Below are positions 11,155 through 25,567 of a stretch of 28,013 bases of DNA, one piece after another. The notes under the pieces are model-generated. The model made no database searches. It was given only the letters and a program-made list of their open reading frames with translations, and was not told the DNA's origin. The DNA comes from a virus. A program made the translations under genes and the position numbers. How positions within the stretch are numbered: the stretch's first letter is position 1; each line of letters opens with the position of its first letter. Location: positions 1 to 28,013 of IMG/VR virus record IMGVR_UViG_3300035698_010841; one strand, given 5' to 3'.

Positions 11155-11183
11155 TTGACAAGTATTACCTGCTATGATAAGAT
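11155..11183 (+). promoter_or_regulatory. Sigma-70 promoter of the first zinc-ribbon/HNH cassette
   Basis: TTGACA (11155-11160), a 17-base spacer and TAAGAT (11178-11183). It begins 6 bases after the tail tube stop codon and drives the genes at 11202 and 11318. The -35 box is perfect; the -10 box matches 4 of 6. An inverted repeat flanks the -10 box (see the separate entry). Confidence 0.75.
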
Positions 11184-11202
11184 ATATACATGGAGGGTAA
11201 TA
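11163..11202 (+). promoter_or_regulatory. Inverted repeat at the cassette 1 promoter, possible operator
   Basis: TATTACC (11163-11169) and GGTAATA (11196-11202) are perfect 7-base arms that straddle the -10 box. The left arm lies upstream of the expected transcript start, so this is a DNA-level site rather than an RNA hairpin. The sister cassette has CTTACC/GGTAAG at the equivalent place. Confidence 0.4.
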
Positions 11203-11318
11203 TGCTAAAGATATTCAGGTGTAAGCGGTGTGGCCATGAATGGCCGAGTAAGCAAGAGCATCCCACTATTTGCCCTAAATGTAAAAGCCCATATTGGGAT
11301 AAGGAGAGGCGGAAATAA
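11202..11318 (+). CDS. Mini zinc-ribbon protein of HNH cassette 1 (38 residues)
   Basis: Start ATG 11202 follows GGAGGG. The product has CKRCGHEWPS, then ICPKCKSPYWDKERRK: two CxxC knuckles 14 residues apart with the 'CGH-W' and 'CPKCKSPYWD' signatures of a widespread mini zinc ribbon. Its stop overlaps the nuclease start by one base (TAATG), so the two are translationally coupled. A near twin exists at 24999-25121 (same two knuckles, also coupled to an HNH gene). Likely a nucleic-acid- or protein-binding partner or regulator of the nuclease. Confidence 0.8.
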   Translation: MLKIFRCKRCGHEWPSKQEHPTICPKCKSPYWDKERRK

Positions 11319-11815
11319 TGCCAGAAGTGGGAGAAATTAAACGAAAGCGAGATGTAGGTTTTGTAGGCAACAATAAATTAATTTGGCATGCTTGTATAGA
11401 TTGTGGGAAAGAGCGATGGGTAGAATTAGAACATGGGGAGCCATCTCATTTAAGATGTCGAAGCTGTGGAGAAAAAGCAAATGGCCAAAATCATTACCGA
11501 TGGAATGGCGGAAGATTTATCCATATAGAAGGTTATGTTCTCATTAAACTTCAACCGGATTCTCCCTTCTATCAAATGACCAATTCAAGGGGATATGTTC
11601 TTGAGCATAGATTAATAATGGCAAAGCATTTGAAGCGTTGTCTTCAACCTATAGAAAAGATTCATCATAGGGGAATTACACATCCCCAAGATAGTAAGGA
11701 AAATAAACAGGATAACCGATTGGAGAATTTGGGACTTTTTGCAAATCCGAATGACCATACAACTAATCATTGGCATAATGGTAAATCACACCGAAGGAGA
11801 CACAGCTATAAATAA
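11318..11815 (+). CDS. HNH endonuclease of cassette 1 with N-terminal zinc ribbon
   Basis: A 165-residue nuclease of homing type. Residues 26-50 form a zinc ribbon (CIDCGKERW, then CRSCG). The HNH region follows: YVLEHRLIMAKHLKR, KIHHRGITH (likely catalytic His pair), and the 'N' part DNRLENLGLFANPNDHTTNH. This arrangement cleaves DNA and spreads the intron-less cassette by homing. It lies between two paralogous tail tube genes, with its own promoter and terminator, so it is an insertion into the tail operon. It is related to the protein at 25121-25567. Confidence 0.88.
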   Translation: MPEVGEIKRKRDVGFVGNNKLIWHACIDCGKERWVELEHGEPSHLRCRSCGEKANGQNHYRWNGGRFIHIEGYVLIKLQPDSPFYQMTNSRGYVLEHRLIMAKHLKRCLQPIEKIHHRGITHPQDSKENKQDNRLENLGLFANPNDHTTNHWHNGKSHRRRHSYK

Positions 11816-11838
11816 CTGAAGTATAAAAAACCTATTTT

Positions 11839-11865
11839 AAGCCACTCAAAACGAGTGGCTTTTTT
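11839..11865 (+). terminator. Intrinsic terminator closing HNH cassette 1
   Basis: AAGCCACTC (11839-11847) and GAGTGGCTT (11853-11861) form a perfect 9-bp stem with loop AAAAC, followed by a run of T to 11865. With the promoter at 11155 it makes the cassette a complete transcription unit. It also lies just ahead of the second tail tube gene. Confidence 0.88.
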
Positions 11866-11895
11866 AATGAGCATAATTATAGGAGGTAAAAAGAA

Positions 11896-12696
11896 ATGAC
11901 CGTAAGCAAACATGGAGTATCAACCGATAGCCCTGACAGAATCTTGATTGATAGCGGTGCCCTCTACTTCGACTTTATTGATGCTGATAGTCCGGGCACC
12001 TTATTGGGTGCTACCCGTGGGGGGAACTCCTTTGAGTTAGCCAGGACGATCAGGCGCATGGAAGCTGATGGTGCCAGAGGACCGGTCAAGGGTCTCAGGC
12101 GTATAGAAGAAGTGGTCGCCACTATCAAGGCCAATATGCTGGAATTGACCGCAGAAAACTTGAGAAGGGCGATAGCCGGATCTATTTATAGTTCAGGCAC
12201 TTCCTTGATAGAGGACGAAGCGGTTGGAAATGGCGATGCAGAAGCCGTAGAGTTTGCCCTTGATCATGGTGCAATAGAACAAAATAGCGTGTCCGTTGCA
12301 GTGGCAGATAGGGAGGCTCAGGTTCTTCTTACCGATTTCACGATAGACTACGATACCGGTACGATTTACTTTGTGGTCGCCCCGGGGGATGGTAAGGCAA
12401 TCACCGCGACTTATTACTATGCCTCCACTGACGCAGTTATAGGTGGGGAATCAACCGAATTAGACAAATACAATATCAAGGATGCTGCCTATATCGGTAA
12501 TGTAGTGATTGTGGGCACTCTCACGGGTAAAACAAATCCGGTAATTGTCAAGATTACCAATGCTTTATGTGATGGGGCATTAAGCCTTAGCATGGCTCCA
12601 AAGGATGAGGCAGTACCCGCCCTGACCTTTACCGGGCATTATTCCAATGCCGACCTTGATACTGAGCCCTGGGAAATTATCTTTCCGGCATCATAA
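11896..12696 (+). CDS. Major tail tube protein, copy 2, with inserted beta-domain
   Basis: Paralog of the protein at 10592: shared start (MTVSKHGVSTDSPDRILIDS), TLLGATRGGNSFELARTIRR, RIEEVVATI, and end (KDEAVPALTFTGHYSNADLD). Residues 101-180 are an extra domain absent from copy 1, with SVSVAVADREAQVLLTDFTI and PGDGKAITATYYYAS. It resembles the insertion in the connector (8292). Extra domains on tube subunits usually project from the tail surface. Two tube proteins may be mixed in a fixed or variable ratio, as in phages with a minor decorated tube subunit. Start has AGGAGGT. Confidence 0.82.
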   Translation: MTVSKHGVSTDSPDRILIDSGALYFDFIDADSPGTLLGATRGGNSFELARTIRRMEADGARGPVKGLRRIEEVVATIKANMLELTAENLRRAIAGSIYSSGTSLIEDEAVGNGDAEAVEFALDHGAIEQNSVSVAVADREAQVLLTDFTIDYDTGTIYFVVAPGDGKAITATYYYASTDAVIGGESTELDKYNIKDAAYIGNVVIVGTLTGKTNPVIVKITNALCDGALSLSMAPKDEAVPALTFTGHYSNADLDTEPWEIIFPAS

Positions 12697-12705
12697 AGGA
12701 GAATT

Positions 12706-13074
12706 ATGGAAATTAGAGAATTACGAGCCAAAGATGTGAAAACCCTAGCCAAGATGCTCGGCAAGCTCAAATCTAGTAGCACAGGTGATTTATTCACGGT
12801 GCTAGATAAGGCAGCTAAAAAGAAGGGCGATAGTAACCCTATGGAAGTAGGCTTGTCTCTTTTTAGGATTGCGGCTGCCGACCTGACTGACGACATTTAT
12901 TCCTGGCTGGCTGATTTGATCGGCAAAACAGTAGAGGAGCTTGATGAGATGTCGGTCAATGCTCCCGCCGATATTATTAAAGAATTGGTAACGCGGGGTG
13001 AATTCAAGTCTTTTTTCGGCTCAGTTTTACAGCAAGCCGGGATACAGAAGGAATCGCTAGGCTCTACGACCTGA
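12706..13074 (+). CDS. Tail assembly chaperone G
   Basis: A 122-residue, helical, acidic/basic protein in the classic slot between tail tube and tape measure. It coats the tape measure protein during tail assembly and is not part of the virion. Helices are visible in ELRAKDVKTLAKMLGKL and DEMSVNAPADIIKELVTRG. A TTTTTTC heptamer at 13011-13017 in register lets some ribosomes shift to -1 to produce the longer G-T protein; without the shift translation stops at 13074. Start follows AGGAG. Confidence 0.85.
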   Translation: MEIRELRAKDVKTLAKMLGKLKSSSTGDLFTVLDKAAKKKGDSNPMEVGLSLFRIAAADLTDDIYSWLADLIGKTVEELDEMSVNAPADIIKELVTRGEFKSFFGSVLQQAGIQKESLGSTT

Positions 13075-13367
13075 TTCAATCCCGCTATAGCTGGGCTGAT
13101 AATACTGTTAATAATCTTTCCTTTGACCGCTTCCAGCAAATAGTAGAGTTACTTTCTAAGGTGAAACATGAAGAAGCCAGGGAACGATTGACAGACTCGG
13201 CTTTTATTGCACATCAGTTAGGTAGTGGCGGAGATAAGAACTTTGGTGATTACCTCCAGAGTTTGGGTTTATTGGAAGGACAAGCGGTAACCGAAGATAA
13301 GGTAACGGCTAAAGAGGCAATCGCTAAGGCTGAAGAAATCCTGAAAATGGCAGGGAAGAAAACTTAA
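12706..13367 (+). CDS. Tail assembly chaperone G-T fusion made by -1 frameshift
   Basis: After the TTTTTTC site (13011-13017) the -1 frame stays open to 13367 and has a coding signature: RLYDLIQSRYSWADNT, SFDRFQQIVELLSKVKHEEA. The fusion would be about 220 residues. The T part binds the tape measure and the tube. The GTG at 13161 that could begin an independent protein has no ribosome site, and the coherent coding sequence extends at least 100 bases before it, so it is part of T rather than a separate gene. Confidence 0.8.
13011..13017 (+). other. -1 ribosomal frameshift slippery heptamer TTTTTTC
   Basis: The G reading frame runs TCT TTT TTC, so T TTT TTC fits the X XXY YYZ rule. A -1 slip leads into the T frame open until 13367. 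Conserved in position across siphophage G/G-T pairs, although the exact heptamer varies. Confidence 0.75.
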
Positions 13368-13603
13368 TTATCTTGTATCTCTTTTAATGCCTGTAATTTC
13401 TTCCAGAGTTCGCCACACTCTAAGTCATCCCTTGCTTCTCTGGAAAGTGTATCGCAAATTCTATTAAATTCCTTCAAATTATCTATCCGTCCTAATTTTA
13501 GAATATGCTTGGCTTTTTTCTTATTCGAAGGTACAACGTAAATATAATAAAACACCATTATTGCAATAACTGCAAGCACTATAATTACAACCCATGTCCA
13601 CAT
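13364..13603 (-). CDS. Reverse-strand small membrane protein (moron), 79 residues
   Basis: The only reverse-strand gene inside the structural module. ATG at 13603 has GGAGGTG seven bases upstream and is preferred to a longer frame from 13651. It begins MWTWVVIIVLAVIAIMVFYY, one strong membrane helix at residues 3-25, followed by a basic, helical cytoplasmic or periplasmic tail (KKKAKHILKLGRIDNLKEFN). Its stop overlaps the stop of the G-T frame tail to tail by four bases. It has its own promoter (13624-13651), so it is expressed independently, probably during lysogeny. Possible roles: superinfection exclusion or host-surface change. No family recognised. Confidence 0.8.
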   Translation of the reverse strand: MWTWVVIIVLAVIAIMVFYYIYVVPSNKKKAKHILKLGRIDNLKEFNRICDTLSREARDDLECGELWKKLQALKEIQDN

Positions 13604-13623
13604 GATACACCTCCTTAATTCCC

Positions 13624-13651
13624 ATTTTAATATCCCGCCAAGATTTGTCAA
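13624..13651 (-). promoter_or_regulatory. Promoter of the reverse-strand membrane gene
   Basis: On the reverse strand TTGACA (13651 down to 13646), a 16-base spacer and TAAAAT (13629 down to 13624). The start codon at 13603 follows about 20 bases later with an intervening GGAGGTG. The box pair lies between the T and tape measure genes. Confidence 0.7.
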
Positions 13652-13670
13652 GTTCTATAAGGAGTAAATA

Positions 13671-15425
13671 ATGGATATTTTCAGTCTAGTAGGCAAGCTT
13701 GCACTCGAAAATGCAGACAAGGTCAAGAGCGAGCTTCAAGGTATTGAAGGCTTTGTTGAGAAAAACAAGGTAGCTTTTCGTGCAATGGGAGTCGCTATGA
13801 CCGCTGTGGGTGCTGCCGGATTAAAGTTTGTATCTGATGCACGCAAAGTCAATGCCCAATTAGGCTCTACAGCTATTACCCTGGGCACTACAACCGATGA
13901 AATGCGTAAGATGGTGCTAGAAACCACCAATGTTACCTTTGGTATTGATTCAGTGGTCAAGACATTCGATCTGCTTGTCCGTGCCGGAGTGCGGAACAAA
14001 ACAGAATTAAAAGCCTCCGCTGAGGCCTTTGATGCCCTGGCTGATGCTACCGGATCAAGTGCTGAAGTTGTAGCTGACATTCTTATTCCTGCTTTGAAAT
14101 CTTTAGGGGAGCGTACTCCTCAAACAACCGAAGAAATGGATAAATTTACATGGCTAGTTAAAAATACAACCATTGATTTATCTGAATTTGGTAGTGTGAT
14201 GGGTTATGTTGCCATGTATGGCCGTGATTTGAATGTCAGCATTGATGACATGGTGGGGATAATGGCAGCTTTAGAAGCGAGGGGTCTTGGCGGTGCCGAA
14301 GCAACAAGATTGTTTAGGACTGCCGTCAGTCGGGCTAAAGATGGAGCTATAACTCTTAATGAGGCATTAGATTTGACTCAGGATGAAATAGACACTTATA
14401 AGGACAAAATTGAAGATGCTACCGGCCTGACTCAAAAACATGCCGATGCAATGAATAAGCAATTGGGCATCATGGACAAAGTTGCGCAGAAATGGAAGGA
14501 ATTGACCCTTGTTACTGGCTCATTCTTGACACCCCTTGAGCCTATTTTAGCCCTTATGACCGCTCTCGGTCCGATAATGATAGCTCTTTCTTTGGGTATA
14601 CTTCCCCAAATTTTGGGATGGATTGTGAAAATTGGGGGTGCTTTAGTCTCTTTCCTCCTGAACCCAATAACGATGTTATTGGTAGGCTTGGGACTGATGG
14701 GCTTTGGCATATACAAGTTGATTAAACATCATACCGACTGGAATAAAATCGTTGAAGCCTCAAGCAGAGTTCAGGAAGAGCTGGCAAAATCTGAGGGTAA
14801 ATTAACCGATGAGGTAATAAAAGCTCAAAAGGCTTATAACGAACTGAGGGAAGCCTACGGGCAATTATCCCCCGAAGAAGAAGAACATCTTGCCCGCAGT
14901 AATGAACTGATAGCAGCCTATGAAGACGGCACTTATAAACTTAATGAACAAACCGGTGCCTTGGAATCAACTACAAAGGCCAGAAAGAAATCAACTGAGC
15001 AACTAATGGCTGAGGCCGATGAACTGCATAGAGTTAATACGGCATTACAAAAAGAACTGGATTTGCGAAATGAACTCATGTCTGTCCTGGGCCAGATGTA
15101 TCCAGGAGGTATCCCCGAAGAAGAATTTGGTAAATTGATAACAGCCGGAATCTTTGACACCTTGTCGGGTGCGCGTTCTCCAGCGATGGGCTATTCCGGT
15201 CTAGGAGGTTATGCAGGCGGGGGATTAATTACCGAACCCACCTGGCTGACCAGAGTAGGTCAGTCCAGACCCTATGGGATGATGGCTGAGAGAAGGCCAG
15301 AATATATCACCCCGGGATTACCCGAAATCACACTTGTCAGCAATACCTACCTGGATGGGGATTTAATCAGCACTAAAGTAGAAAGAAACCTCGCTAATAA
15401 AGTCAGATTGCAAGGGGGGTTTTAA
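13671..15425 (+). CDS. Tape measure protein (TP901 type)
   Basis: Sets tail length and helps DNA entry. Residues 1-60 are an N-terminal helical segment (ENADKVKSELQGIEGFVEKN). Residues 60-230 match the TP901-type core: DARKVNAQLGSTAITLGTTT, VKTFDLLVRAGVRNKTELKA, then GYVAMYGRDLNVSIDDMVGI. Residues 285-350 hold a hydrophobic stretch with several membrane-length helices (PILALMTALGPIMIALSLGI). Residues 365-500 are coiled coil. At 584 residues it is short for the class, so the tail is probably modest in length (about 85-90 nm by the usual 0.15 nm per residue rule). Start has AAGGAG, and the stop overlaps the next gene by one base (TAATG). Confidence 0.9.
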   Translation: MDIFSLVGKLALENADKVKSELQGIEGFVEKNKVAFRAMGVAMTAVGAAGLKFVSDARKVNAQLGSTAITLGTTTDEMRKMVLETTNVTFGIDSVVKTFDLLVRAGVRNKTELKASAEAFDALADATGSSAEVVADILIPALKSLGERTPQTTEEMDKFTWLVKNTTIDLSEFGSVMGYVAMYGRDLNVSIDDMVGIMAALEARGLGGAEATRLFRTAVSRAKDGAITLNEALDLTQDEIDTYKDKIEDATGLTQKHADAMNKQLGIMDKVAQKWKELTLVTGSFLTPLEPILALMTALGPIMIALSLGILPQILGWIVKIGGALVSFLLNPITMLLVGLGLMGFGIYKLIKHHTDWNKIVEASSRVQEELAKSEGKLTDEVIKAQKAYNELREAYGQLSPEEEEHLARSNELIAAYEDGTYKLNEQTGALESTTKARKKSTEQLMAEADELHRVNTALQKELDLRNELMSVLGQMYPGGIPEEEFGKLITAGIFDTLSGARSPAMGYSGLGGYAGGGLITEPTWLTRVGQSRPYGMMAERRPEYITPGLPEITLVSNTYLDGDLISTKVERNLANKVRLQGGF

Positions 15426-15820
15426 TGAGTGAAATAGCTGGGACATTTATATTTAACGGAAAGCCAATGAACGGTGCGACTGCGAAATTATGGAGTGCAG
15501 CTGGTTTTGTGAGCCCCCCAGAACAGGACGATGACGAACCCGATGGCGAATACCAGCTGGGTGATGACATAACGACTGGGATCCAATATGGCGGAGACGG
15601 AGCTTTCAGGTTTAGTGATATTTCCCCAGGTGAGTTTTATATCTCTGTGGAATATGACAATCACCGGGCATGGTTTTTCTATGACCACATAAATTTGAGT
15701 GATTTATTGACTACCGAAGGGGATATGGTGATAAGAGGGGAATCGTCATTAGAAGTAGTTTCCGCAGGGACCGAGGCACAGAAATTAAAAACAGTTGGAG
15801 GTGTTCCGGAATGGGCATAG
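15425..15820 (+). CDS. Tail appendage protein, paralog A
   Basis: A 131-residue protein with a carboxypeptidase-regulatory-like or Ig-type beta-sandwich: GTFIFNGKPMNGATAKLWSA, GDGAFRFSDISPGEFYISVE, then YDNHRAWFFYDHINLSDLLT. The end (TTEGDMVIRGESSLEVVSAG, then GGVPEWA) is the linker often used at the tip of phage fibres and baseplate proteins. It is paralogous to residues 1-133 of the next protein. Its role is probably virion attachment or a tail tip decoration. The stop codon overlaps the next gene by 10 bases. Confidence 0.72.
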   Translation: MSEIAGTFIFNGKPMNGATAKLWSAAGFVSPPEQDDDEPDGEYQLGDDITTGIQYGGDGAFRFSDISPGEFYISVEYDNHRAWFFYDHINLSDLLTTEGDMVIRGESSLEVVSAGTEAQKLKTVGGVPEWA

Positions 15821-16590
15821 TACAAGGTACGTTTATATATAAGGGTTCACCGACAAATGCGGCAACCGCTAAACTCTGGGGGGCGAGTGTTTTCGATCCT
15901 CCTCCTGAATATGACGATGATGAGCCGGGTAGTGGGCAAGTAGGCGAGGCAGTCACCACTGGGGTTGATTATGGTGGAGACGGTGCTTATCGATGGGTTG
16001 ATGTTGATGATGGTGCTTATTATGTCTCCATAGAATATGACAATCACAGAGTGTTTCAATATCACCATGTCGAGGATATAGCCTCTATTCTAACAACTGA
16101 AGGCGATATACTTGTCATGGGGGGGGAGGAACTTGAGAGACTACCCATAGATGATGAAGGCAAAATATTAGCTATATATGACGGGGTGCCAGCATGGAGA
16201 CCGTTGCCCTGGGTTTTCTCTACTACTCTCTTGCGTCATTCCGATGATGCAGTAAAAAGTACATCTTCGACTACCTATGTCAAAATCAAGGAGTTTAAAT
16301 TAAACGAGGGCTTTTGGGGAACAATTAGAACAAAATTTGATTTACGAAGTACAGGCGGTGAATATCGGGCTTGGGGGAAAATCTATAGAAACGGAGTCGC
16401 TCTTGGCGTGGAAAAAGAATCTTCTAGCGATAGTTTTGTAACTTGGACCGAGGATCTTAATGCGGAGTGGGTAGCAAATGATTTGATTCAAATTTATGCT
16501 AAACGAGAAGTCAGTGGCACTGCTGAGGTACAAAATTTCAGATTGTATTTTGAGGTTACTTATACTGCCCCGACCAACCAGGATCCATAA
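15811..16590 (+). CDS. Tail appendage protein, paralog B with extra C-terminal beta-domain
   Basis: 259 residues. Residues 1-133 repeat the whole of the preceding protein (GTFIYKGSPTNAATAKLWGA, GDGAYRWVDVDDGAYYVSIE, EYDNHRVFQYHHVEDI, TTEGDILVMGGEELERL). Residues 134-255 add a second beta-domain (YVKIKEFKLNEGFWGTIR, YRAWGKIYRNGVALGVEKES, then NFRLYFEVTYTAP). The tandem pair arose by duplication; the added domain may carry binding specificity. It precedes the hub-like gene, consistent with a tail tip location. Function inferred from context only. Confidence 0.72.
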   Translation: MGIVQGTFIYKGSPTNAATAKLWGASVFDPPPEYDDDEPGSGQVGEAVTTGVDYGGDGAYRWVDVDDGAYYVSIEYDNHRVFQYHHVEDIASILTTEGDILVMGGEELERLPIDDEGKILAIYDGVPAWRPLPWVFSTTLLRHSDDAVKSTSSTTYVKIKEFKLNEGFWGTIRTKFDLRSTGGEYRAWGKIYRNGVALGVEKESSSDSFVTWTEDLNAEWVANDLIQIYAKREVSGTAEVQNFRLYFEVTYTAPTNQDP

Positions 16591-16628
16591 GGAGTTTTGT
16601 AATACTGAAATTGAGGCACTAAAGAAAG

Positions 16629-17690
16629 ATGAGAGTATCAGTTAAGATTAATGGAGCCGATGTTAAAGTTCTGAAGCCGAGCCTTAAGCTGGATTCCAGA
16701 TTGGGCAATAGAATATCTACGGCTAGTTTTGATTTTCTGGGTGAGGAGAAATGGGCTACACCTTCCTGCGCGATTGCCCTCATTCCAGCTATGGGGGGAT
16801 ATACTCACCCCATGGGTAAAGGCGAAGTCAAAATAGACCGAGCCCCCACGCCGATGCAGAATTGCGCTATCAGCTTGACTCCATCAATAGGCGGTCGTAG
16901 TACCTATCTTGATCATTTCTTTGGAGGTTATATTGCCACTAAGGAAATCAGGTTGATTGGCAGAAGACGATTCTACCGGTGTTCAACTCAGGACTATAAC
17001 ATTCTGACTACTCAAAAATTAGTGACTGAATCCTATGAGGAAAAGACCGAGCAGGAAATAATAGACGATTTGTTTTCTACCTACTTACCAGAGATTGATA
17101 CTTCAACTTACGTGGAATCATCCGGAACAAAAATAACCATAGACTGGACGCGGGTATATCTGAACGAGGTCATGGAGGAACTGGCGGGCATATTTAGTAA
17201 GGAATGGCTTATCGACTACGAAAAGAAACTCCATTATTTTACGCCTTCAACCGATGAAGCTCCATTTGAATTGTCTGATAGTCCTTCTCTCACCACCAAG
17301 AAAATGTATAACAACTTTGAGCACATAGAGGATGACTCAAAGATAATCAATAAAGTAACCGTTGTCGGTGATCCCGATGTTCCGGTAGTAGTAACCAGGC
17401 AGAGTGATGAGAGTTACGCAAAATACGGAGAGTGGTATGAAGGAAAGATAGTTGATAGAAATATTGACACCGAAGCGTGGGCAATCCTACGCGGTGATGC
17501 TGAATTAGCAGAAGCGGCTTTCGGTAAGGTAGATGGGAGCTTGACCTGCTATCAAGAAGGATTGGTCATCGGGCAGAAGGTGAGCATCTATAACGGTCTG
17601 AGAAACATTGATGACGATTTCCTGGTCAAATCTGTCAGGCTGAGTATGTTGAGTAACTTCCTTGAGAAGGTGGATATCGAGTATGAGTGA
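16629..17690 (+). CDS. Baseplate hub / distal tail-like protein
   Basis: A 353-residue protein of the tail-tip hub type (gp27/gpD-like fold). Signs: the opening MRVSVKINGADVKVLKPSLK, then RISTASFDFLG; a central HFFGGYIATKEIRLIGRRRF with STQDYNILTTQKLV; and a C-terminal helical-beta part (EQEIIDDLFSTYLPEIDTST, YLNEVMEELAGIFSKEWLID, YEKKLHYFTPS). Residues 44-98 look like an insertion with two related segments, CAIALIPAMGG and CAISLTPSIGG, not usual for the fold. Start has a poor ribosome site; the gene overlaps the next by 8 bases. Confidence 0.75.
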   Translation: MRVSVKINGADVKVLKPSLKLDSRLGNRISTASFDFLGEEKWATPSCAIALIPAMGGYTHPMGKGEVKIDRAPTPMQNCAISLTPSIGGRSTYLDHFFGGYIATKEIRLIGRRRFYRCSTQDYNILTTQKLVTESYEEKTEQEIIDDLFSTYLPEIDTSTYVESSGTKITIDWTRVYLNEVMEELAGIFSKEWLIDYEKKLHYFTPSTDEAPFELSDSPSLTTKKMYNNFEHIEDDSKIINKVTVVGDPDVPVVVTRQSDESYAKYGEWYEGKIVDRNIDTEAWAILRGDAELAEAAFGKVDGSLTCYQEGLVIGQKVSIYNGLRNIDDDFLVKSVRLSMLSNFLEKVDIEYE

Positions 17691-19803: not shown

Positions 19804-19812
19804 GGGTATAAA

Positions 19813-20061
19813 GTGAGCATTTATAAGTGGATCTGGACAAGAATAGGCGGCAGGCCATGGACTTATATTTCTAGGGATATTTACCATAAACTTGAGTATT
19901 TGGTTTTGGTGGGCCTGTTTATCGGTGGCTTTGTGTTGGGAAGAGTAGGTCTAATTAGCTGGAAGTGGTTTTTAGTAATTATGGCCGCTTATACAGTCGG
20001 TTATATTCACGGCCACTTCTTCTGGGGGACTGAATATATACCCGGACAGAAAGGGGATTAG
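19813..20061 (+). CDS. Small membrane protein (possible holin or lysis-associated)
   Basis: 82 residues from a GTG start preceded by AGGGG. Two membrane helices: YLVLVGLFIGGFVLGRVGLI and KWFLVIMAAYTVGYIHGHFF. The N-terminal part is amphipathic (RPWTYISRDIYHKLEY). Its position after the fibre gene and before the terminator is typical for holins or lysis regulators. No endolysin is seen beside it. Alternative: an accessory membrane protein. Confidence 0.65.
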   Translation: MSIYKWIWTRIGGRPWTYISRDIYHKLEYLVLVGLFIGGFVLGRVGLISWKWFLVIMAAYTVGYIHGHFFWGTEYIPGQKGD

Positions 20062-20063
20062 AT

Positions 20064-20294
20064 ATGATAGACTTTTTACAATGGATTGGAGCTGTAGGTG
20101 GAGTAGGTGCTGTCTTTGCGGTCATAATGTTTTTTGTTTATCGGCAGACCATTAAACAAATGCGGGAAGATCGCAAGTTCATAGAAAATCGGATGGCAAC
20201 TCTCGCTGGTGATTATAATAGGACAACTTCTGATAATACTAAGGTTCTGTGGGAATTGATAACCTGGCTTAAGGCAAAGAATGGCAGCAAGTGA
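20064..20294 (+). CDS. Single-helix holin-like (BhlA/XhlA-like) protein
   Basis: 76 residues: one N-terminal membrane helix (VGGVGAVFAVIMFFVYRQTI), then a charged helix (KQMREDRKFIENRMATLA) and coil. This one-helix-plus-basic-coil layout is that of BhlA-type holin-like proteins, though spanin or other small lysis roles remain possible. It starts 3 bases after the preceding stop and ends before the terminator at 20370. Confidence 0.6.
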   Translation: MIDFLQWIGAVGGVGAVFAVIMFFVYRQTIKQMREDRKFIENRMATLAGDYNRTTSDNTKVLWELITWLKAKNGSK

Positions 20295-20369
20295 TAACGC
20301 CATCCTATTAAGAAGCCACAGAATCAGAATCTAAGCCCCTAAAATAACTTTTGAGTAGTAGTAGTAGTT

Positions 20370-20407
20370 CCCCCCTTCATTTACGGATGAAAGGGGGATG
20401 TTTTTTT
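20370..20407 (+). terminator. Intrinsic terminator after the late operon
   Basis: Six C then TTCAT (20370-20380) pairs with ATGAAAGGGGG (20387-20397) with one mismatch and a 6-base loop, followed by ATG and seven T. It separates the late genes from the immunity region. Confidence 0.85.
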
Positions 20408-20430
20408 ATTCCCAAACATTAGGGTAATCA

Positions 20431-20730
20431 TCATCTCTCCTCAGTAAATATCGGAATAGTGTCAGGGAAAGTAACCAAGGCCCGGTGCATTAGTTCCAGT
20501 GGTGTTTCTTCAGGAATAGCGGAAACTGACTGCAAAAATATTTCGGGTTCCACCATTAGAGCTTCAGCTAATTGTCTGAGAATCCGTATGGTTATACTGC
20601 CAGCTCTTCCCTTAATTAAGGAATTGATATATCCCCTGTCTACGCCAGAGAGTTTAGCTAACTTTCTTTGACTCAGGCCCTTTTCGGCTAACAGTCGTTT
20701 TAATAACTTACCTACATTTTCTTCAGTCAT
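20431..20730 (-). CDS. XRE-family phage repressor (CI-like)
   Basis: Reverse-strand transcriptional repressor, 99 residues from ATG 20730 (alternatively 109 from ATG 20760, which lacks a ribosome site). The helix-turn-helix is clear: LLKRLLAEKGLSQRKLAKLS followed by GVDRGYINSLIKGRAGSITI, then RILRQLAEALMVEP. The short C-terminal part has no LexA-type peptidase, so induction would not follow RecA self-cleavage; it may need an antirepressor or be a short repressor. Divergent to the Cro-like gene at 20933, with operators between. Confidence 0.88.
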   Translation of the reverse strand: MTEENVGKLLKRLLAEKGLSQRKLAKLSGVDRGYINSLIKGRAGSITIRILRQLAEALMVEPEIFLQSVSAIPEETPLELMHRALVTFPDTIPIFTEER

Positions 20731-20788
20731 ATCTCCTACCTGTAGATTATTGTCGCACATCTGTATATATTTTCAAGTCTGTGGTTAT

Positions 20789-20816
20789 ATTCTACATCTT
20801 AAATAGTCATAGTCAA
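20789..20816 (-). promoter_or_regulatory. Leftward promoter of the repressor
   Basis: On the reverse strand TTGACT (20816 down to 20811), a 16-base spacer and TAGAAT (20794 down to 20789), each 5 of 6 matches. It would start transcription about 50 bases before ATG 20730. The ACATCTT/AAGATGT inverted repeat covers the same stretch. Confidence 0.6.
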
Positions 20817-20821
20817 GATGT
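20794..20821. promoter_or_regulatory. Inverted repeat, candidate operator over the leftward promoter
   Basis: ACATCTT (20794-20800) and AAGATGT (20815-20821) are perfect 7-base arms with a 14-base centre. They lie over the leftward promoter boxes, so a bound dimer would control the repressor gene. Confidence 0.5.
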
Positions 20822-20839
20822 CTTATCTTATCTTTAATA

Positions 20840-20859
20840 TACTATTTTGAAAAATAGTA
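20840..20859. promoter_or_regulatory. 20-bp palindrome, candidate operator
   Basis: TACTATTTT (20840-20848), GA, then AAAATAGTA (20851-20859): nine perfectly paired bases per arm. It sits between the divergent promoters, 21 bases before the rightward -35 box, as expected for a repressor or Cro site. Confidence 0.65.
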
Positions 20860-20879
20860 GAAAAAAAACTACAAAGGTA

Positions 20880-20908
20880 TTGACAAATGCCACATAGTTG
20901 TTTATAAT
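20880..20908 (+). promoter_or_regulatory. Rightward early promoter, perfect consensus
   Basis: TTGACA (20880-20885), 17 bases, TATAAT (20903-20908): full consensus on both boxes with ideal spacing. It drives the Cro-like gene at 20933 and the early operon. The leader is only about 15-20 bases long and the start codon is GTG. Two copies of CACAGTGA (20912-20919 and 20929-20936) flank the leader. Confidence 0.9.
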
Positions 20909-20932
20909 ATCCACAGTGAGGTTAAAATCACA

Positions 20933-21259
20933 GTGAATAATCTAATAGAAGCGGTAAAGAAATACCAGCAAGACGAAAAGCTTAGTGACAATCAATTAAC
21001 TAAACTCTTGAGGATTGACCGTTCAACCTGGTCTTATATCAAGAGTGGCAAGAGAAACCCTGGCATCAAATTTCTAAGGGCCATAGCTCGTGAAATTCCC
21101 AAACTAAACTCATTGGTCTATGTGGAAATATCCGACAATACCAAACACAGCGCCACTGAGAAGCCACAGAATAAACGAGGCGGTGTCTTTAGGGATTGGG
21201 TCATAGGTTTCCCCCACTGGTTCCGAAAAAAGCTATCAGGGATGTTTAGGGACAATTAG
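20933..21259 (+). CDS. Cro-like XRE-family regulator
   Basis: 108 residues from GTG 20933, with GAGG eleven bases upstream. N-terminal helix-turn-helix: YQQDEKLSDNQLTKLLRIDR followed by STWSYIKSGKRNPGIKFLRA. The C-terminal half is basic and ends with an aromatic, amphipathic segment (RDWVIGFPHWFRKKLSGMFR). First gene of the early operon, divergent to the repressor; likely represses the leftward promoter. The next gene begins directly after its stop. Confidence 0.8.
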   Translation: MNNLIEAVKKYQQDEKLSDNQLTKLLRIDRSTWSYIKSGKRNPGIKFLRAIAREIPKLNSLVYVEISDNTKHSATEKPQNKRGGVFRDWVIGFPHWFRKKLSGMFRDN

Positions 21260-21745
21260 ATGAAAGCTGTTGAATTAGAATTGCTAATGGGGGAACGAAA
21301 GATTTGCCCCTTCTGCGGTTGGGCTTTCAAGCCACTATATCCCGACCAAATTTATTGCACGGCTAGATGTGCCACGCTTGTTGAAAGTGGATTTGAATCG
21401 ACTGTCCGAAAATGTCCGGTTTGTAATAATCCTTTGCCTGTCAATGCCCATAAAGGGCGCACGTTCTGTTCGAAGGAATGCCAACTCGAAGCTCGCAATA
21501 GAACAAAAGGCTGGAATCAAACTAAGCGTCATTGGGAAAATCTGCGTGAATTTGTCCTAGAGCGCGATGACTTTACTTGCCAAGATTGCGGTAAATTCCT
21601 GATGAACGTAGGGCTGGAAGCACACCATATTAAACCACTGTTCCAGGGTGGCTCCAATGATGAGAAAAACCTAATAACACTTTGTCATAAGTGCCATAAA
21701 AAGAGACACATGAATTCGATGAAGAATCAAAATCTGAGAGGGTGA
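21260..21745 (+). CDS. HNH endonuclease with two N-terminal zinc fingers
   Basis: 161 residues. Two treble-clef-like Cys pairs: CPFCGWAFKPLYPDQIYC with a second CTARC-type turn, then CPVCNNPLPVN and FCSKEC. The HNH nuclease core is CQDCGKFL, then LEAHHIKPLFQGGSNDEKNL with the second half ITLCHKCHKKRH. Likely catalytic His in AHHI, and a structural zinc by the CxxC/CxxC pair. It starts one base after the Cro-like stop and has GGGA as a ribosome site, so it is co-transcribed early. It is not closely similar to the two cassette nucleases. Confidence 0.87.
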   Translation: MKAVELELLMGERKICPFCGWAFKPLYPDQIYCTARCATLVESGFESTVRKCPVCNNPLPVNAHKGRTFCSKECQLEARNRTKGWNQTKRHWENLREFVLERDDFTCQDCGKFLMNVGLEAHHIKPLFQGGSNDEKNLITLCHKCHKKRHMNSMKNQNLRG

Positions 21746-21746
21746 A

Positions 21747-21947
21747 ATGAAACAGTGGATAACAAACTTTATAGTAATAGGCTTGGCTCTAGCCTTTTTA
21801 GTTCACTTCACCATGATAGCCATGTGGGGGCAGGTATTAATACAGGAACCAAACACAATAATTCTGGTGCTAGAAATCGTGGGGTTAATAGTCATTATGG
21901 GATTCGCTATTAGCAACCTTGTACATATTGCCAGGAGGGGGAATTAA
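21747..21947 (+). CDS. Small two-helix membrane protein, unknown
   Basis: 66 residues with two membrane spans: ITNFIVIGLALAFLVHFTMI and TIILVLEIVGLIVIMGFAIS. Basic C-terminus (HIARRGN). It starts next to the HNH stop (TGA then ATG after one base) with GAGGG as ribosome site. Role unknown; early membrane proteins in temperate phages often affect superinfection, but nothing here proves it. Confidence 0.65.
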   Translation: MKQWITNFIVIGLALAFLVHFTMIAMWGQVLIQEPNTIILVLEIVGLIVIMGFAISNLVHIARRGN

Positions 21948-21950
21948 TAG

Positions 21951-22097
21951 ATGCACATATTAGCTATATCTCTCCTTGGTTTACTGGGCTTCTTCTTCCT
22001 TCTGTGTCTATGGGCTTTCATTGAACGATGGTGGCATGACAAGAAGGAATTGGAAAGGTGGAAAGCCTGGAATAAAAACAGAAGGAGCAAGAAATGA
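21951..22097 (+). CDS. Small membrane-anchored protein, 48 residues
   Basis: ATG 21951 with AGGAGGGGG upstream. An N-terminal membrane anchor (LLGLLGFFFLLCLWAFI) is followed by a highly charged helix (ERWWHDKKELERWKAWNKNR). Its stop overlaps the next start by 4 bases (ATGA), so it is coupled in the early operon. No family recognised. Confidence 0.7.
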   Translation: MHILAISLLGLLGFFFLLCLWAFIERWWHDKKELERWKAWNKNRRSKK

Positions 22098-22327
22098 CAG
22101 CTAAGCTCAAGAATAAGGTAAACAAAAAGACTGGCAATTTTATCTGTAATAGGTGTGGCCTTGATGTTGGGTTGTGTGTGTTGTTTCAACGGCGAGTTTA
22201 CTGCCTTAAATGTTTTGAAATCATAAAAGGGATAAGAGACGAAAACGGAACTATCAAGGACCAAAGAACAATTATACAGATTGATGATCTAAAGGCTATG
22301 AGGGATGCCAGCAGGATAAGGATATAG
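22094..22327 (+). CDS. Small zinc-finger protein
   Basis: 77 residues with the pairs ICNRCGLDVG and YCLKCFEIIKGI, a simple zinc ribbon. The rest is charged (KDQRTIIQIDDLKAMRDASR). Part of the early cluster of zinc-binding small proteins. Function unknown. Confidence 0.7.
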   Translation: MTAKLKNKVNKKTGNFICNRCGLDVGLCVLFQRRVYCLKCFEIIKGIRDENGTIKDQRTIIQIDDLKAMRDASRIRI

Positions 22328-22330
22328 AAA

Positions 22331-22663
22331 ATGAGCACCAACGGCGAGCTAAAGCAAGAAGTCAGGTATCTACTCAGGACAGGCAAGGAGAAAGCCCGGA
22401 CTGGGAAAGACTTGGCTACAGTTTTGGGGTTCAACAATGATCGGTTGGTGCGCCAGGTAATTAGAGAACTAATAGCCGATGGGTTGCCAGTAATATCTTC
22501 AGTTCAACAACCCTACGGTTATTACATTGCCGATAGTGCCGATGATATTACAGAACACCTGGGTGAGTTAAGGCACCGTGCCCTTGAGGTTTTGGGCCGA
22601 TATAGAGACCTCAAGATAGCTTCCCGAGAGATATTACAGCCACACCAGATAGCACTTATTTAA
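22331..22663 (+). CDS. Winged-helix DNA-binding protein
   Basis: 110 residues. N-terminal winged helix: ELKQEVRYLLRTG, then GKDLATVLGFNNDRLVRQVI, then the wing VISSVQQPYGYYIADSADDI. Such phage proteins usually regulate early genes or load replication factors. It lies 3 bases after the preceding gene in the early operon. C-terminal helices may dimerise (HRALEVLGRYRDLKIASREI). Confidence 0.72.
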   Translation: MSTNGELKQEVRYLLRTGKEKARTGKDLATVLGFNNDRLVRQVIRELIADGLPVISSVQQPYGYYIADSADDITEHLGELRHRALEVLGRYRDLKIASREILQPHQIALI

Positions 22664-22675
22664 GGAGGAGAAAAG

Positions 22676-22867
22676 ATGGTGACTGAAAACAAACTACCAA
22701 TGCCAGTAATTTGTGAATGTGGCTTCTCAACAATGGATGCTAAAGAGGCAGTACGGCACATCAAGGAGAAACACCCTGAAATATGGGCGGAAGCTAATGA
22801 GGATCGTGAGATAGCAGACAACATGAGGGATTACTGGAAGCATTTAAGTTGCGGAGCAGATAGGTAA
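22676..22867 (+). CDS. C2H2-type mini zinc-finger protein
   Basis: 63 residues with CECGFSTMDAKEAVRHIKEK and then HPE: two Cys, and two His 5-6 residues apart, as in a C2H2 finger. Excellent GGAGGAG site. Its stop overlaps the next start by one base (TAATG). Function unknown. Confidence 0.7.
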   Translation: MVTENKLPMPVICECGFSTMDAKEAVRHIKEKHPEIWAEANEDREIADNMRDYWKHLSCGADR

Positions 22868-23193
22868 TGACTATAGCAACTAGGAAAGTCTGTAAGAATT
22901 GTGGCGGTACTCTCTTCGTTCGGGATGAGAACGATGGGGATTACTGTCTTCTATGTTGTCACCCGTATATCAGCTACCGGGATTACGGCAGAATAGGTGG
23001 GCTTCAAACCTTAATGAGGTATGGGAAAGCCCATTACAGTGAAATTGGCAAGTTAGGCGGAAGGTCAAGATTACGGCGACTACCAGCTCCCGAGGCCGAA
23101 TCTAATCGAAATGGAGGGAAACGGTCGCTCAACCGGTTAGGCGAACTAAGGGGGCTGTGTAAGACGAAATATAACCGGGGGGAGCAGTCATAG
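22867..23193 (+). CDS. Zinc-ribbon protein with GG-repeat region
   Basis: 108 residues. An N-terminal zinc ribbon (CKNCGG, then YCLLCCH) is followed by two short repeats YGRIGGLQTLMRYG and IGKLGGR, of the KGG type seen in general stress proteins, and a basic tail (RNGGKRSLNRLGELRG). Likely a nucleic-acid-binding accessory. Its last codons contribute to a hairpin at 23177-23214. Confidence 0.68.
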   Translation: MTIATRKVCKNCGGTLFVRDENDGDYCLLCCHPYISYRDYGRIGGLQTLMRYGKAHYSEIGKLGGRSRLRRLPAPEAESNRNGGKRSLNRLGELRGLCKTKYNRGEQS

Positions 23194-23214
23194 CCAGCAA
23201 CTCTTGCTTCCCCC
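23177..23214 (+). other. Hairpin near the ribosome site of the next gene
   Basis: GGGGGGAGCA (23177-23186) pairs with TGCTTCCCCC (23205-23214) with one bulged T. The CCCCC run can alternatively pair partly with the GGGGGAGG ribosome site (23216-23223) of the gene at 23233. Translation of that gene might therefore depend on ribosomes finishing the upstream one. This is a weak prediction. Confidence 0.4.
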
Positions 23215-23232
23215 AGGGGGAGGTAGTCAGAA

Positions 23233-23430
23233 ATGTTAAGGAAGCTAACCAGGAGAATAATCAGAGACGAACTTAAGAAAACCTATAATGCTGGCTATGA
23301 TGCCGGACTAGCTAAGGGATATGAACTTGGTTACAGGATGAGCAAAACTGAAAGAACTAATCGTGGCTTCATCATCGGCTCAAAGGTAGACCAGCAGTTA
23401 GAGGAGATTCTGAGAGAGAAGAATGGGTGA
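23233..23430 (+). CDS. Hypothetical small basic helical protein
   Basis: 65 residues, ATG after GGGGGAGG. Predicted mostly helical and rich in Lys/Arg (RKLTRRIIRDELKKTYNAGY, then AGLAKGYELGYRMSK). It may bind nucleic acid or a partner. No family recognised. Confidence 0.6.
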   Translation: MLRKLTRRIIRDELKKTYNAGYDAGLAKGYELGYRMSKTERTNRGFIIGSKVDQQLEEILREKNG

Positions 23431-23458
23431 ACTATAAGGCTAATTAAAGGAGGTAATC

Positions 23459-23734
23459 ATGGAGAAGACCAAGAAACAAGTTATATCCGGTTATCATCGG
23501 CCAGTCTGTAGTAAATGTAATCGTGAGTTACACCCTGAGACTAATGGAGTCGGAGTTCTCGATATGGCAAATGGCCGACCCTATGAGATATTTGACGCTG
23601 ACCTATGGAAATGCCCGGGGTGTGGCATCGAAGTAGTAGGGGGTTTTGGTCAAGGTCCTATCTCTGCTCACTATAAGGATAACTTTCAGCAGGTGATAGA
23701 TGGCTATGAAGTAATAATCAAAAATACAGGATAA
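23459..23734 (+). CDS. Conserved phage zinc-ribbon protein
   Basis: 91 residues, AGGAGGTAATC start. CSKCNRELHPETNGVGVLDM and DADLWKCPGCGIEVVGGFG make one zinc ribbon with an insert, a design I recall from early phage operons. C-terminal segment ISAHYKDNFQQVIDGYE is helical. Function unknown. Confidence 0.75.
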   Translation: MEKTKKQVISGYHRPVCSKCNRELHPETNGVGVLDMANGRPYEIFDADLWKCPGCGIEVVGGFGQGPISAHYKDNFQQVIDGYEVIIKNTG

Positions 23735-23746
23735 GAGGAGGTAATC

Positions 23747-24943
23747 ATGCAAGAGACTAAAGGACATTGTAAACACGGGGAATTTGACTTGAAGACTGGG
23801 TGCGCTCAGTGTATCGCCGAGAAGAGGGCGGAAGCGGAGGTAAATTCACCGGCTAACATAGCCAAGAGGGTAGCGGAAGCTCAGGCAACCAAAAAGCCAT
23901 TCATTGAGCAAGAAATCCCTACTGAATACAATCTACCTATCGTCAAGGTTCAATACTACTCAGAAACCTCAGGGGAATTAAGCTCGCGTCAATATACCTA
24001 TTATTCCGCGGACCAGCTGGTTGTGGGCGACATTGTGACCGTCCCAGTTCGGGACACCACTGGCAAGGCCAGAGTCAGTGCGGTTGGAGTGTCTGAATCG
24101 GAAATAGCCAGCTTCAGGGATAAAGTCAAGACAATACCATCTGGCTCGATAGTCCCTGTGGTAAAGCCAGAGAACGAGGAAATGGAAGAGGGGCTAAATG
24201 CCGAAGGTCTGACGCTGAGGAATGTTGGAGAGCCGGTTGAAATAACGGAATCATTATTAGAGGAATCGGCAGCTGAGCCAAAACCTGAGGTAGTAGTTTC
24301 TAAAGGAACGGCCATCGTGAAAGTCGACCCCGGCGCCGCGCCTTCATTTGCCAGGCATCTTGAATCAGCGAAGCGCATGGTCGAGATAGCGGCGGCTCGG
24401 GAAATCGTGACAGAGGTCGATGCTAAGGCAGCTAACGACGACCTGACCGTTATGGGCGAACTCAGGAAAGCGGTCGACGCCGAACGCAAGACATTCACAG
24501 TCCCATTGAATGAGTATCTAGGCGCCATCAATGGAGCATACAAATTGATAACCGCGCCTCTTCTCGAGGCTGAACAGATAACCAGGAAAGCACTGACAGC
24601 CTATAAAGTTGAGCAGAAACGAAAGGCAGATGAAACGGCAAAGCTGAATCAGGATGCCATTGACCTTGCCCGGCGACAGGCCGAGGCTAACAATGGAGAA
24701 TTTACAGTAGAAATCAAGCCTATCCCAGTGCTATTCGCGCCGAAGCTCACACGCACTGACCAGGGAACGTCTGGGCTAGTTGACAACTGGAAATACCGCA
24801 TCGTCGACCTTGAGAAGCTACCAAGGGAATACATGATACCAGACGATGCTATGCTCAAGTCCATAGCCAAGAGTAGCCACGATAAGAAGCAGGTAGCCGG
24901 CGTTGAGTTTTATAATCTGCCTACTCTTAGGGTTTCGAGGTAA
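23747..24943 (+). CDS. Phage coiled-coil protein of the recombination/replication module
   Basis: 398 residues. An N-terminal Cys/His cluster (CKHGEFDLKTGCAQC) may bind zinc. Residues 65-125 look like a small OB-type domain (VKVQYYSETSGELSS, QLVVGDIVTVPVRDT). Residues 195-320 are a long helical coiled-coil part (ESAKRMVEIAAAREIVTEVD, then AYKVEQKRKADETAKLNQDA). The end, WKYRIVDLEKLPREYMIPDD and GVEFYNLPTLRV, matches proteins found next to phage recombinases. A replication or recombination accessory role is inferred from this and from its place before the recombination gene at 25598. An HNH cassette separates the two. Confidence 0.72.
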   Translation: MQETKGHCKHGEFDLKTGCAQCIAEKRAEAEVNSPANIAKRVAEAQATKKPFIEQEIPTEYNLPIVKVQYYSETSGELSSRQYTYYSADQLVVGDIVTVPVRDTTGKARVSAVGVSESEIASFRDKVKTIPSGSIVPVVKPENEEMEEGLNAEGLTLRNVGEPVEITESLLEESAAEPKPEVVVSKGTAIVKVDPGAAPSFARHLESAKRMVEIAAAREIVTEVDAKAANDDLTVMGELRKAVDAERKTFTVPLNEYLGAINGAYKLITAPLLEAEQITRKALTAYKVEQKRKADETAKLNQDAIDLARRQAEANNGEFTVEIKPIPVLFAPKLTRTDQGTSGLVDNWKYRIVDLEKLPREYMIPDDAMLKSIAKSSHDKKQVAGVEFYNLPTLRVSR

Positions 24944-24950
24944 AATAGAC

Positions 24951-24979
24951 TTGACAAATACTTACCGATAAGTTATACT
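24951..24979 (+). promoter_or_regulatory. Sigma-70 promoter of the second zinc-ribbon/HNH cassette
   Basis: TTGACA (24951-24956), 17 bases, TATACT (24974-24979), nearly perfect. It lies eight bases after the preceding stop codon and drives the genes at 24999 and 25121. CTTACC/GGTAAG arms flank the -10 box, as at the first cassette. Confidence 0.8.
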
Positions 24980-24989
24980 TCTAGGTAAG
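24961..24989 (+). promoter_or_regulatory. Inverted repeat at the cassette 2 promoter, possible operator
   Basis: CTTACC (24961-24966) and GGTAAG (24984-24989), perfect 6-base arms with a 17-base centre holding the -10 box. Cassette 1 has TATTACC/GGTAATA with a 26-base centre. The shared TTACC/GGTAA halves suggest a common binding protein. Confidence 0.4.
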
Positions 24990-24998
24990 AGGTGAGAT

Positions 24999-25121
24999 AT
25001 GAAAACAGAAGTTACAAGCCTGCAATGTAAGCGGTGTGGTCATTCTTGGTATCCCCGCCAACCCGAAGTGCGTATCTGCCCGAAATGTAAAAGCCCCTAC
25101 TGGGACAAGGAGCGGAAATAA
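24999..25121 (+). CDS. Mini zinc-ribbon protein of HNH cassette 2 (40 residues)
   Basis: Twin of the protein at 11202-11318: CKRCGHSWYPR, then ICPKCKSPYWDKERK. Both CxxC knuckles and the flanking residues are kept. Nucleotide similarity is also high around the knuckles (TGTAAGCGGTGTGG is shared). The stop overlaps the nuclease start by one base (TAATG). As in cassette 1, expression is independent and coupled to the HNH gene, so it may be a required partner or regulator. Confidence 0.82.
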   Translation: MKTEVTSLQCKRCGHSWYPRQPEVRICPKCKSPYWDKERK

Positions 25122-25567
25122 TGCCGAGTTGGAAATACTGTGCTTGCGTGGATTGCGGCAAAGTCCGATTAGTCCAAACACACTATGGTAAACCTAGAAG
25201 CCTGAGATGTAAATCCTGTTCTAAGATTGGTGCTAATCATCCCCAATATGGGAAGTTTGGAGAAGGGGCTGCTCATTGGAAAGGTGGTCAATATACAGAT
25301 GTTAGAGGTTATGTATTTGTTCATAATCTTGAGCATCATCGGACTCATAATGGGCATGTTAAAAGAGCAGTATTAGTTCTTGAGTCCAAACTAAATAGAC
25401 TGCTCCGAGATGGCTATGACGCCCACCACAAAAATGAAATCAAAGATGATGACAACCCTAAAAACTTAGAGGAAAAACCGCATGGTGAACATGCAGCCCT
25501 TCATTTGCTGAAAAGGCGTTTTAATCACAATGAGCCATCGCTGAGGCACAAGAGGGTGACTAGGTGA
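25121..25567 (+). CDS. HNH endonuclease of cassette 2
   Basis: 148 residues with an N-terminal zinc ribbon (CVDCGKVRLV, then CKSCSKIGANH) and an HNH core: LVLESKLNRLLRDGYDAHHK (likely catalytic His pair), then NEIKDDDNPKNLEEKPHGEH. It resembles the cassette 1 nuclease (both have C-DCGK, RC-SC and Y-DVRGYVF/IEGYVLI). It sits between the coiled-coil protein and the recombination protein in the early operon. It has its own promoter but no terminator, so it may also add transcription to the downstream genes. Confidence 0.87.
   Translation: MPSWKYCACVDCGKVRLVQTHYGKPRSLRCKSCSKIGANHPQYGKFGEGAAHWKGGQYTDVRGYVFVHNLEHHRTHNGHVKRAVLVLESKLNRLLRDGYDAHHKNEIKDDDNPKNLEEKPHGEHAALHLLKRRFNHNEPSLRHKRVTR

Follow-up and report, generated by a model that had tools for sequence, protein, structure and literature searches.

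Why should a gene of some 40 codons stand directly ahead of a DNA-cutting enzyme, and do so twice in one virus? Genes for enzymes that cut or modify DNA must spare the new host or the replicating phage, and, to our knowledge, it is largely an open matter how TnpB elements, archaeal restriction-modification (R-M) systems and free-standing homing nucleases limit their dose in most cases. The question arises from a 28,013-base IMG/VR virus record (the window, by which we mean the whole stretch of DNA analysed), from which we read two cassettes that each couple a mini zinc-ribbon (ZR) gene to an HNH nuclease gene. We found that the promoter and the ZR gene together are a swappable 5′ module ahead of many kinds of DNA-acting enzymes. 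We further propose, at about even confidence, that ZR is an autoregulatory controller, predicted to bind DNA, that travels with selfish DNA enzymes, and that the two cassettes are mobile HNH genes led by this module.

An earlier note on this DNA had described twin cassettes with the common order promoter, ZR gene and HNH gene, coupled by TAATG, and both were found in place:

11155..11183, + strand: cassette 1 promoter, TTGACA-17-TAAGAT with an extended -10 TG (10/12 consensus)
11164..11169, + strand: half-site ATTACC in the spacer of that promoter, by sequence; further viral ZR promoters have it at this place too
11196..11201, + strand: half-site GGTAAT on the ZR1 ribosome site, by sequence, the putative partner half-site
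11202..11318, + strand: ZR1, mini zinc-ribbon gene, 38 aa (62 bits with the ZR hidden Markov model)
11318..11815, + strand: HNH nuclease 1 (HNH1); phrog_20891 'HNH endonuclease' E 5e-15, alignment, and AlphaFold2 (AF2) model with a predicted local distance difference test score (pLDDT) of 90
11839..11861, + strand: intrinsic-terminator-like stem-loop, by sequence, at the end of cassette 1
24951..24979, + strand: cassette 2 promoter, TTGACA-17-TATACT (11/12 consensus)
24962..24988, + strand: operator-like region TTACC...TACTTCTAGGTA(A) across the -10 of cassette 2, of a dyad class enriched at ZR genes
24999..25121, + strand: ZR2, mini zinc-ribbon gene, 40 aa (AF2 pLDDT 81)
25121..25567, + strand: HNH nuclease 2 (HNH2); phrog_20891 E 1e-14, Pfam HNH_3 5e-4

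The open reading frame (ORF) of ZR1 opens at 11190, the likelier start being the ATG at 11202, which is preceded by GGAGGGTAAT. At both junctions the ZR stop and the HNH start form TAATG with a one-base overlap, located at 25121 in cassette 2. ZR1 and ZR2 have CKRCGH-x-W and ICPKCKSPYWDKER in common, and over aligned bases the DNA of the two cassettes is 82% identical in ZR as against 67% in HNH, which bears out the contention that the ZR genes are the better conserved. The AF2 model of ZR2 is a small four-cysteine zinc ribbon lacking helices and hence any helix-turn-helix. The best Pfam matches of ZR (HypA, Zn_ribbon_TFIIS and Zn_ribbon_4) all fall under the curated cutoffs, and PHROGs and PDB sequences return generic zinc ribbons only. 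HNH1 and HNH2 both keep the HH, DN, NL and H residues of the HNH family alignment (HH..DN..NL..H in HNH1, whose N-terminus also displays zinc-knuckle-like cysteines); among the two, Pfam matched only that of cassette 2, weakly (HNH_3, 5e-4). Foldseek returned nothing significant for either the ZR or the HNH models, so that fold comparison adds nothing, and it is profiles and motif that identify the HNH. Both enzymes are presumably homing nucleases.

To see what company the family keeps, we drew on a sample obtained with the DNA pattern CPKCK(S/T)PYW, which comprises at least 118 viral and at least 115 cellular-genome stretches, and defined the partner of a ZR gene as a gene starting within 60 bases of its stop. 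By hand tally, at least 27 of 60 viral partners are nucleases, TnpB, integrases or methyltransferases (MTases), whereas random genes of those loci yielded no more than about 4 in 60; the nucleases span HNH enzymes of several families, NUMOD3, endonuclease VII, GIY-YIG and PD-(D/E)XK. On the cellular side, 15/52 partners match N6_N4_Mtase, and others are D12, C5 and EcoRI-type MTases, HSDR_N, NgoPII, resolvases and TnpB; the 25 families listed for the cellular control set include a single type I specificity subunit and a single restriction enzyme, and no MTase family. Stop/start overlaps of 1, 4 or 8 bases link ZR and partner in dozens of pairs, and the exact TAATG coupling of ZR to HNH recurs in unrelated phages (L009, L024/L127, L027, L037, L044, L075/L183, L185), in keeping with the earlier view that ZR is no ordinary neighbour.

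Near-identical ZRs lead different enzymes. ZR pairs with at least 75% amino acid identity have non-homologous partners in 55 cases and homologous ones in 29, counts that are not phylogenetically independent, and some of those with non-homologous partners have 95-98% identical upstream DNA (L244, L259, L306, L326, L334). Within the archaeal group L244, L259 and L306, a promoter region of 95-98% identity precedes DUF4011, HsdM-like and HsdR-like partners; phage L054 has a pair of ZRs of 89% identity ahead of non-homologous genes, one of them a NUMOD3-type nuclease; and ZR2 has its nearest relative, at 90% identity, in L027, where the HNH behind that relative is only 31% identical to HNH2. Conversely, an HNH gene of the phrog_20891-type family lies within 250 bases downstream of 15/127 viral ZR genes (the two copies of the window included) and of 0/111 cellular ones, among the matches listed, so that the mini protein occurs mostly without such a neighbour and a narrow pairing of ZR with HNH does not hold. 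Homologous phage HNH loci found independently nearly all lack a ZR in front. Consequently, the self-contained homing unit with a required ZR partner that had been suggested survives as an insertion with its own promoter, and the requirement of ZR by the HNH enzyme is not supported, the HNH homologues being mostly without ZR; the alternative suggestion of a regulatory ZR survives in a broader form, as a swappable promoter-plus-ZR module, its promoter region marked by a dyad, before many DNA-acting enzymes. A separate feature of the HNH family is that three viral contigs (L134, L131, L148) carry two or three of its genes each with no ZR, a dense load of homing genes.

We had also considered ZR as a dedicated HNH subunit, an idea that lost ground because the module is swapped and because so many HNH genes have no ZR. 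In its general form, this main rival holds that ZR is a physical accessory subunit of the downstream enzyme, i.e., a detachable DNA-binding or targeting domain, and no transcription regulator. The tight coupling and the largely DNA-acting partners would suit it, as would two fusions, one of HNH and ZR in a single ORF (L056, 7773-8240) and one of ZR and a D12 adenine MTase (L335, PF02086 E 2e-36), which we count in favour of the controller reading as well. Yet near-identical ZRs accompany non-homologous enzymes, the HNH family mostly does without ZR, the HNH already has an N-terminal cysteine ribbon of its own, and a subunit role does not predict the promoter dyad at the ZR gene described next; we therefore regard it as unlikely, though worth keeping in sight.

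Promoter matches of at least 10/12 lie upstream of 34/106 viral ZR genes, versus 1.8% of shuffled upstreams. Among the phages closest to the window as a group, the promoter consensus reads TTGACA-N4-CTTACC-N-ATAGGT-TATACT-TATAGGTAAG, with half-sites on the -10. A first comparison of [TA]ACC..GGT[TA] with control genes gave p 5e-8 for cells and 2e-4 for viruses with AT-confounded controls; because gene controls are confounded by AT content, we adopted dinucleotide shuffles and clustered upstreams. With upstreams clustered below 55% identity and all 256 four-base half-sites set against the shuffles, TACT..AGTA ranks first (cell p 5e-9, viral p 2e-3) and TACC..GGTA second (cell p 3e-7, viral p 2e-2). 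Pooled as TACY-N3-6-RGTA, the dyad is found in 29/68 cellular upstreams (4.3 expected) and 12/83 viral ones (3.1 expected), and in genomes retrieved once the motif had been settled it occurs in 6/13 independent upstreams (1.6 expected, p 0.003), some of which (L385, L387) hold two or three copies. In cassette 2 the dyad lies at 24976-24987, covering the -10 and the leader. Of the HNH genes without ZR, just 1/57 is preceded by it. Elsewhere in the window, a perfect sigma-70 consensus promoter (TTGACA-17-TATAAT, 20880-20908) heads the early genes and lacks the dyad.

Several observations weigh against ZR as an autoregulatory controller. Cassette 1 lacks a compact dyad, its ATTACC and GGTAAT half-sites being separated; the exact dyad is absent from 71/83 independent viral ZR upstreams, and the viral enrichment is moderate; and in an earlier, smaller hold-out, run with the motif in a narrower form, p was no better than 0.04. 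Some ZR genes, roughly one in four to one in three, lack a close partner downstream, and since ERF, Bro-N and many unknown genes are among the partners, the family extends beyond nucleases and MTases. Finally, in ZR phages, a few promoters with the TTACC...GGTA spacer element also stand before non-ZR genes (L026 4809+, L069 838+, L078 6559+, L080 4906-, L112 2750-), so that the element's binder could be another phage or host regulator. Taken by themselves, these promoters possibly make up a small ZR regulon. They also lend themselves, along with the ZR genes that lack a close partner, to the idea that a phage or host repressor recognises the dyad, and that ZR, a small early gene under selection for some other function, happens to head an insertion-prone slot. 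As the same dyad is found at ZR genes of archaea, bacteria and phages, with ZR as the shared factor, and as DNA enzymes are strongly favoured among the partners, we consider this second explanation improbable, and less credible than an accessory subunit.

Are the cassettes mobile? The genes that flank them allow comparison with relatives:

10592..11149, + strand: tail tube gene TTP1, left flank of cassette 1 (phrog_885 E 5e-43; empty sites)
11896..12696, + strand: tail tube gene TTP2, right flank of cassette 1 (phrog_885 E 3e-49; empty sites)
23747..24943, + strand: exonuclease-like gene, left flank of cassette 2 (phrog_10477 E 9e-9; cassette-free relatives)

Relatives of TTP1, 65-77% identical, were found on eight viral contigs, some of which are near-duplicates (L186/L187, L189/L190). 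The gap between TTP1 and TTP2 is 746 bp in the window and about 22-70 bp, cassette-free, in 8/8 of these contigs; cassette 1 is thus an insertion, and its position between paralogous tail tube genes, with a terminator-like stem at 11839-11861, agrees with what had been noticed from the sequence. Likewise, in the relatives of the exonuclease-like gene (L379, 73% identical, and L381) the next gene follows directly without a cassette. Because homologous sites of both cassettes are empty in relatives, as the proposed comparison of presence and absence was meant to reveal, both behave as units of gain and loss. Apart from this, the TTP2 homologues of L188, L191 and L193 have ~450 extra bases past residue 122, possibly an inserted domain, and a DNA search of the phage collection with the window gene at 257-1490 gave no relative.

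Empty sites also bear on the notion of ordinary HNH homing genes, free-standing ones, that landed downstream of a common small ZR gene, the pairing being due to chance and a good promoter nearby. Homing genes do insert between genes (PMC2988022), and HNH genes without ZR often have a promoter too (11/57). The empty sites, in contrast, lack both ZR and HNH, and therefore the pair arrived together or ZR came first; moreover, the exact one-base overlap recurs in many phages, and the archaeal MTase and restriction partners are not homing genes. We accordingly hold a chance pairing to be very improbable, the least credible of the three alternatives.

The median pairwise dN/dS of the ZR core is 0.12, indicating strong purifying selection, and ZR therefore functions as a protein, not merely as a leader. 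RNA structure over the ZR2-HNH2 junction is unremarkable (z -0.12) and Rfam has no match anywhere in the window, from which we conclude that there is no riboswitch-like leader.

Members of the family are 36-50 residues long and present in phages, bacteria and archaea. Whole-genome profile searches recovered ZR, mostly in one copy each, from 45/237 genomes of the archaeal phylum that contains Pacearchaeota, 16/194 of the phylum of a Thermoplasmatales archaeon, 10/294 of the Methanolobus phylum, 10/301 of a Chloroflexi phylum, 10/198 of the Nitrospirae phylum and 6/199 of an Acidobacteriales phylum. Among annotated phages and plasmids, relatives of the mini-ZR amount to two weak phage matches (one virus in two records), with none in plasmids. 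The lone copy in the annotated phage collection, at 1501-1602 of the Methanomassiliicoccales virus vir335 (L407, BK063680.1), is unannotated as a gene, illustrating how easily a mini-ZR is overlooked. The string CPKCKSPYW is absent from, and no such controller is described in, the literature searched, outside of which subscription papers largely fell. The mini-ZR is thus a widespread and apparently unstudied family.

The same type of ribbon also occurs in larger proteins. Proteins of ~440 aa made up of several consecutive ZR-type ribbons are encoded at two places of one genome from the Thermoplasmata-side search (L400, L401). Nitrospirae-phylum genomes have a family of ORFs of 150-180 aa, at most two per genome, in which a CxRC...CPGCKSPYW ribbon is combined with ~85 conserved residues at the C-terminal end (L370-L378). 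In L359 (1240-1617, - strand) a ZR-family ribbon is fused to a STAS-like DUF4325 domain, and a similar C-terminal sequence is found in L117.

We propose ZR as a controller because a fold of the nucleic-acid-binding type, a dyad-bearing promoter and a dangerous enzyme behind it together reproduce the layout of R-M controllers (PMC3874152) and, in function, that of I-TevI autorepression (PMC2988022). As a mechanism, we suggest that ZR, probably dimeric or multimeric, would bind TAC(C/T)...(A/G)GTA half-sites within the promoter of its gene, and that this binding might repress or time transcription of the operon. The enzyme gene would then be translated by re-initiation at an overlapping or very near start, which would tie the enzyme dose to the ZR dose. 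In phages the module goes with homing-type nucleases, TnpB and integrases, and in archaea and bacteria mostly with DNA methyltransferases and restriction genes. It is tempting to go further, though here we lean slightly towards doubt, and to count the 40-residue ZR among the smallest autoregulatory transcription factors, with a promoter-operator-ZR module common to archaea, bacteria and their viruses. If so, mobile DNA enzymes (homing nucleases, TnpB, recombinases and R-M genes) would acquire the module as a ready-made governor of expression, and dose limitation would have a common answer across domains, in the form of a 40-residue controller that is transferable and needs only a simple operator. 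ZR would also be a predictor of new nucleases and methyltransferases directly behind it, and could serve as a minimal genetic switch.

Closest among known systems are the C proteins of R-M systems, encoded by a small gene that lies ahead of the R-M genes and is co-transcribed or coupled with them; with the operator placed in the promoter of that gene, they set the dose of a dangerous DNA enzyme (PMC3874152). Like these, ZR is a small gene upstream of an R or M gene, its cellular partners often being MTase or restriction genes with overlaps, and the enrichment of TACY-N3-6-RGTA points to a palindromic operator-like element in its promoter. C proteins bind DNA by a helix-turn-helix (PMC3874152), whereas ZR is a zinc ribbon of 36-50 aa for which the AF2 model predicts no helix-turn-helix; unlike C proteins, it is also found in archaea and phages and serves homing nucleases, TnpB and recombinases as well. 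The gene of the phage T4 homing nuclease I-TevI is under an operator that overlaps its own promoter, with involvement of a zinc finger (PMC2988022). There the nuclease itself represses, while in the ZR module the operator-like promoter belongs to a mini-protein gene that is separate and transferable. Haloarchaea have Brz and other small CPxCG zinc-finger proteins, Brz being encoded directly upstream of the neighbour that it regulates (PMC2253796). Both Brz and ZR are tiny zinc proteins encoded just upstream of a neighbour; Brz serves bacteriorhodopsin genes. With free-standing phage HNH homing endonucleases (phrog_20891, phrog_10730) the cassettes have in common the HNH motif, intergenic insertion and presence or absence among relatives, and differ from most of them in that their HNH genes are led by the ZR module. 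C-type controllers and the autorepression of I-TevI being already known, the novelty would lie in a zinc-ribbon controller for mobile DNA enzymes.

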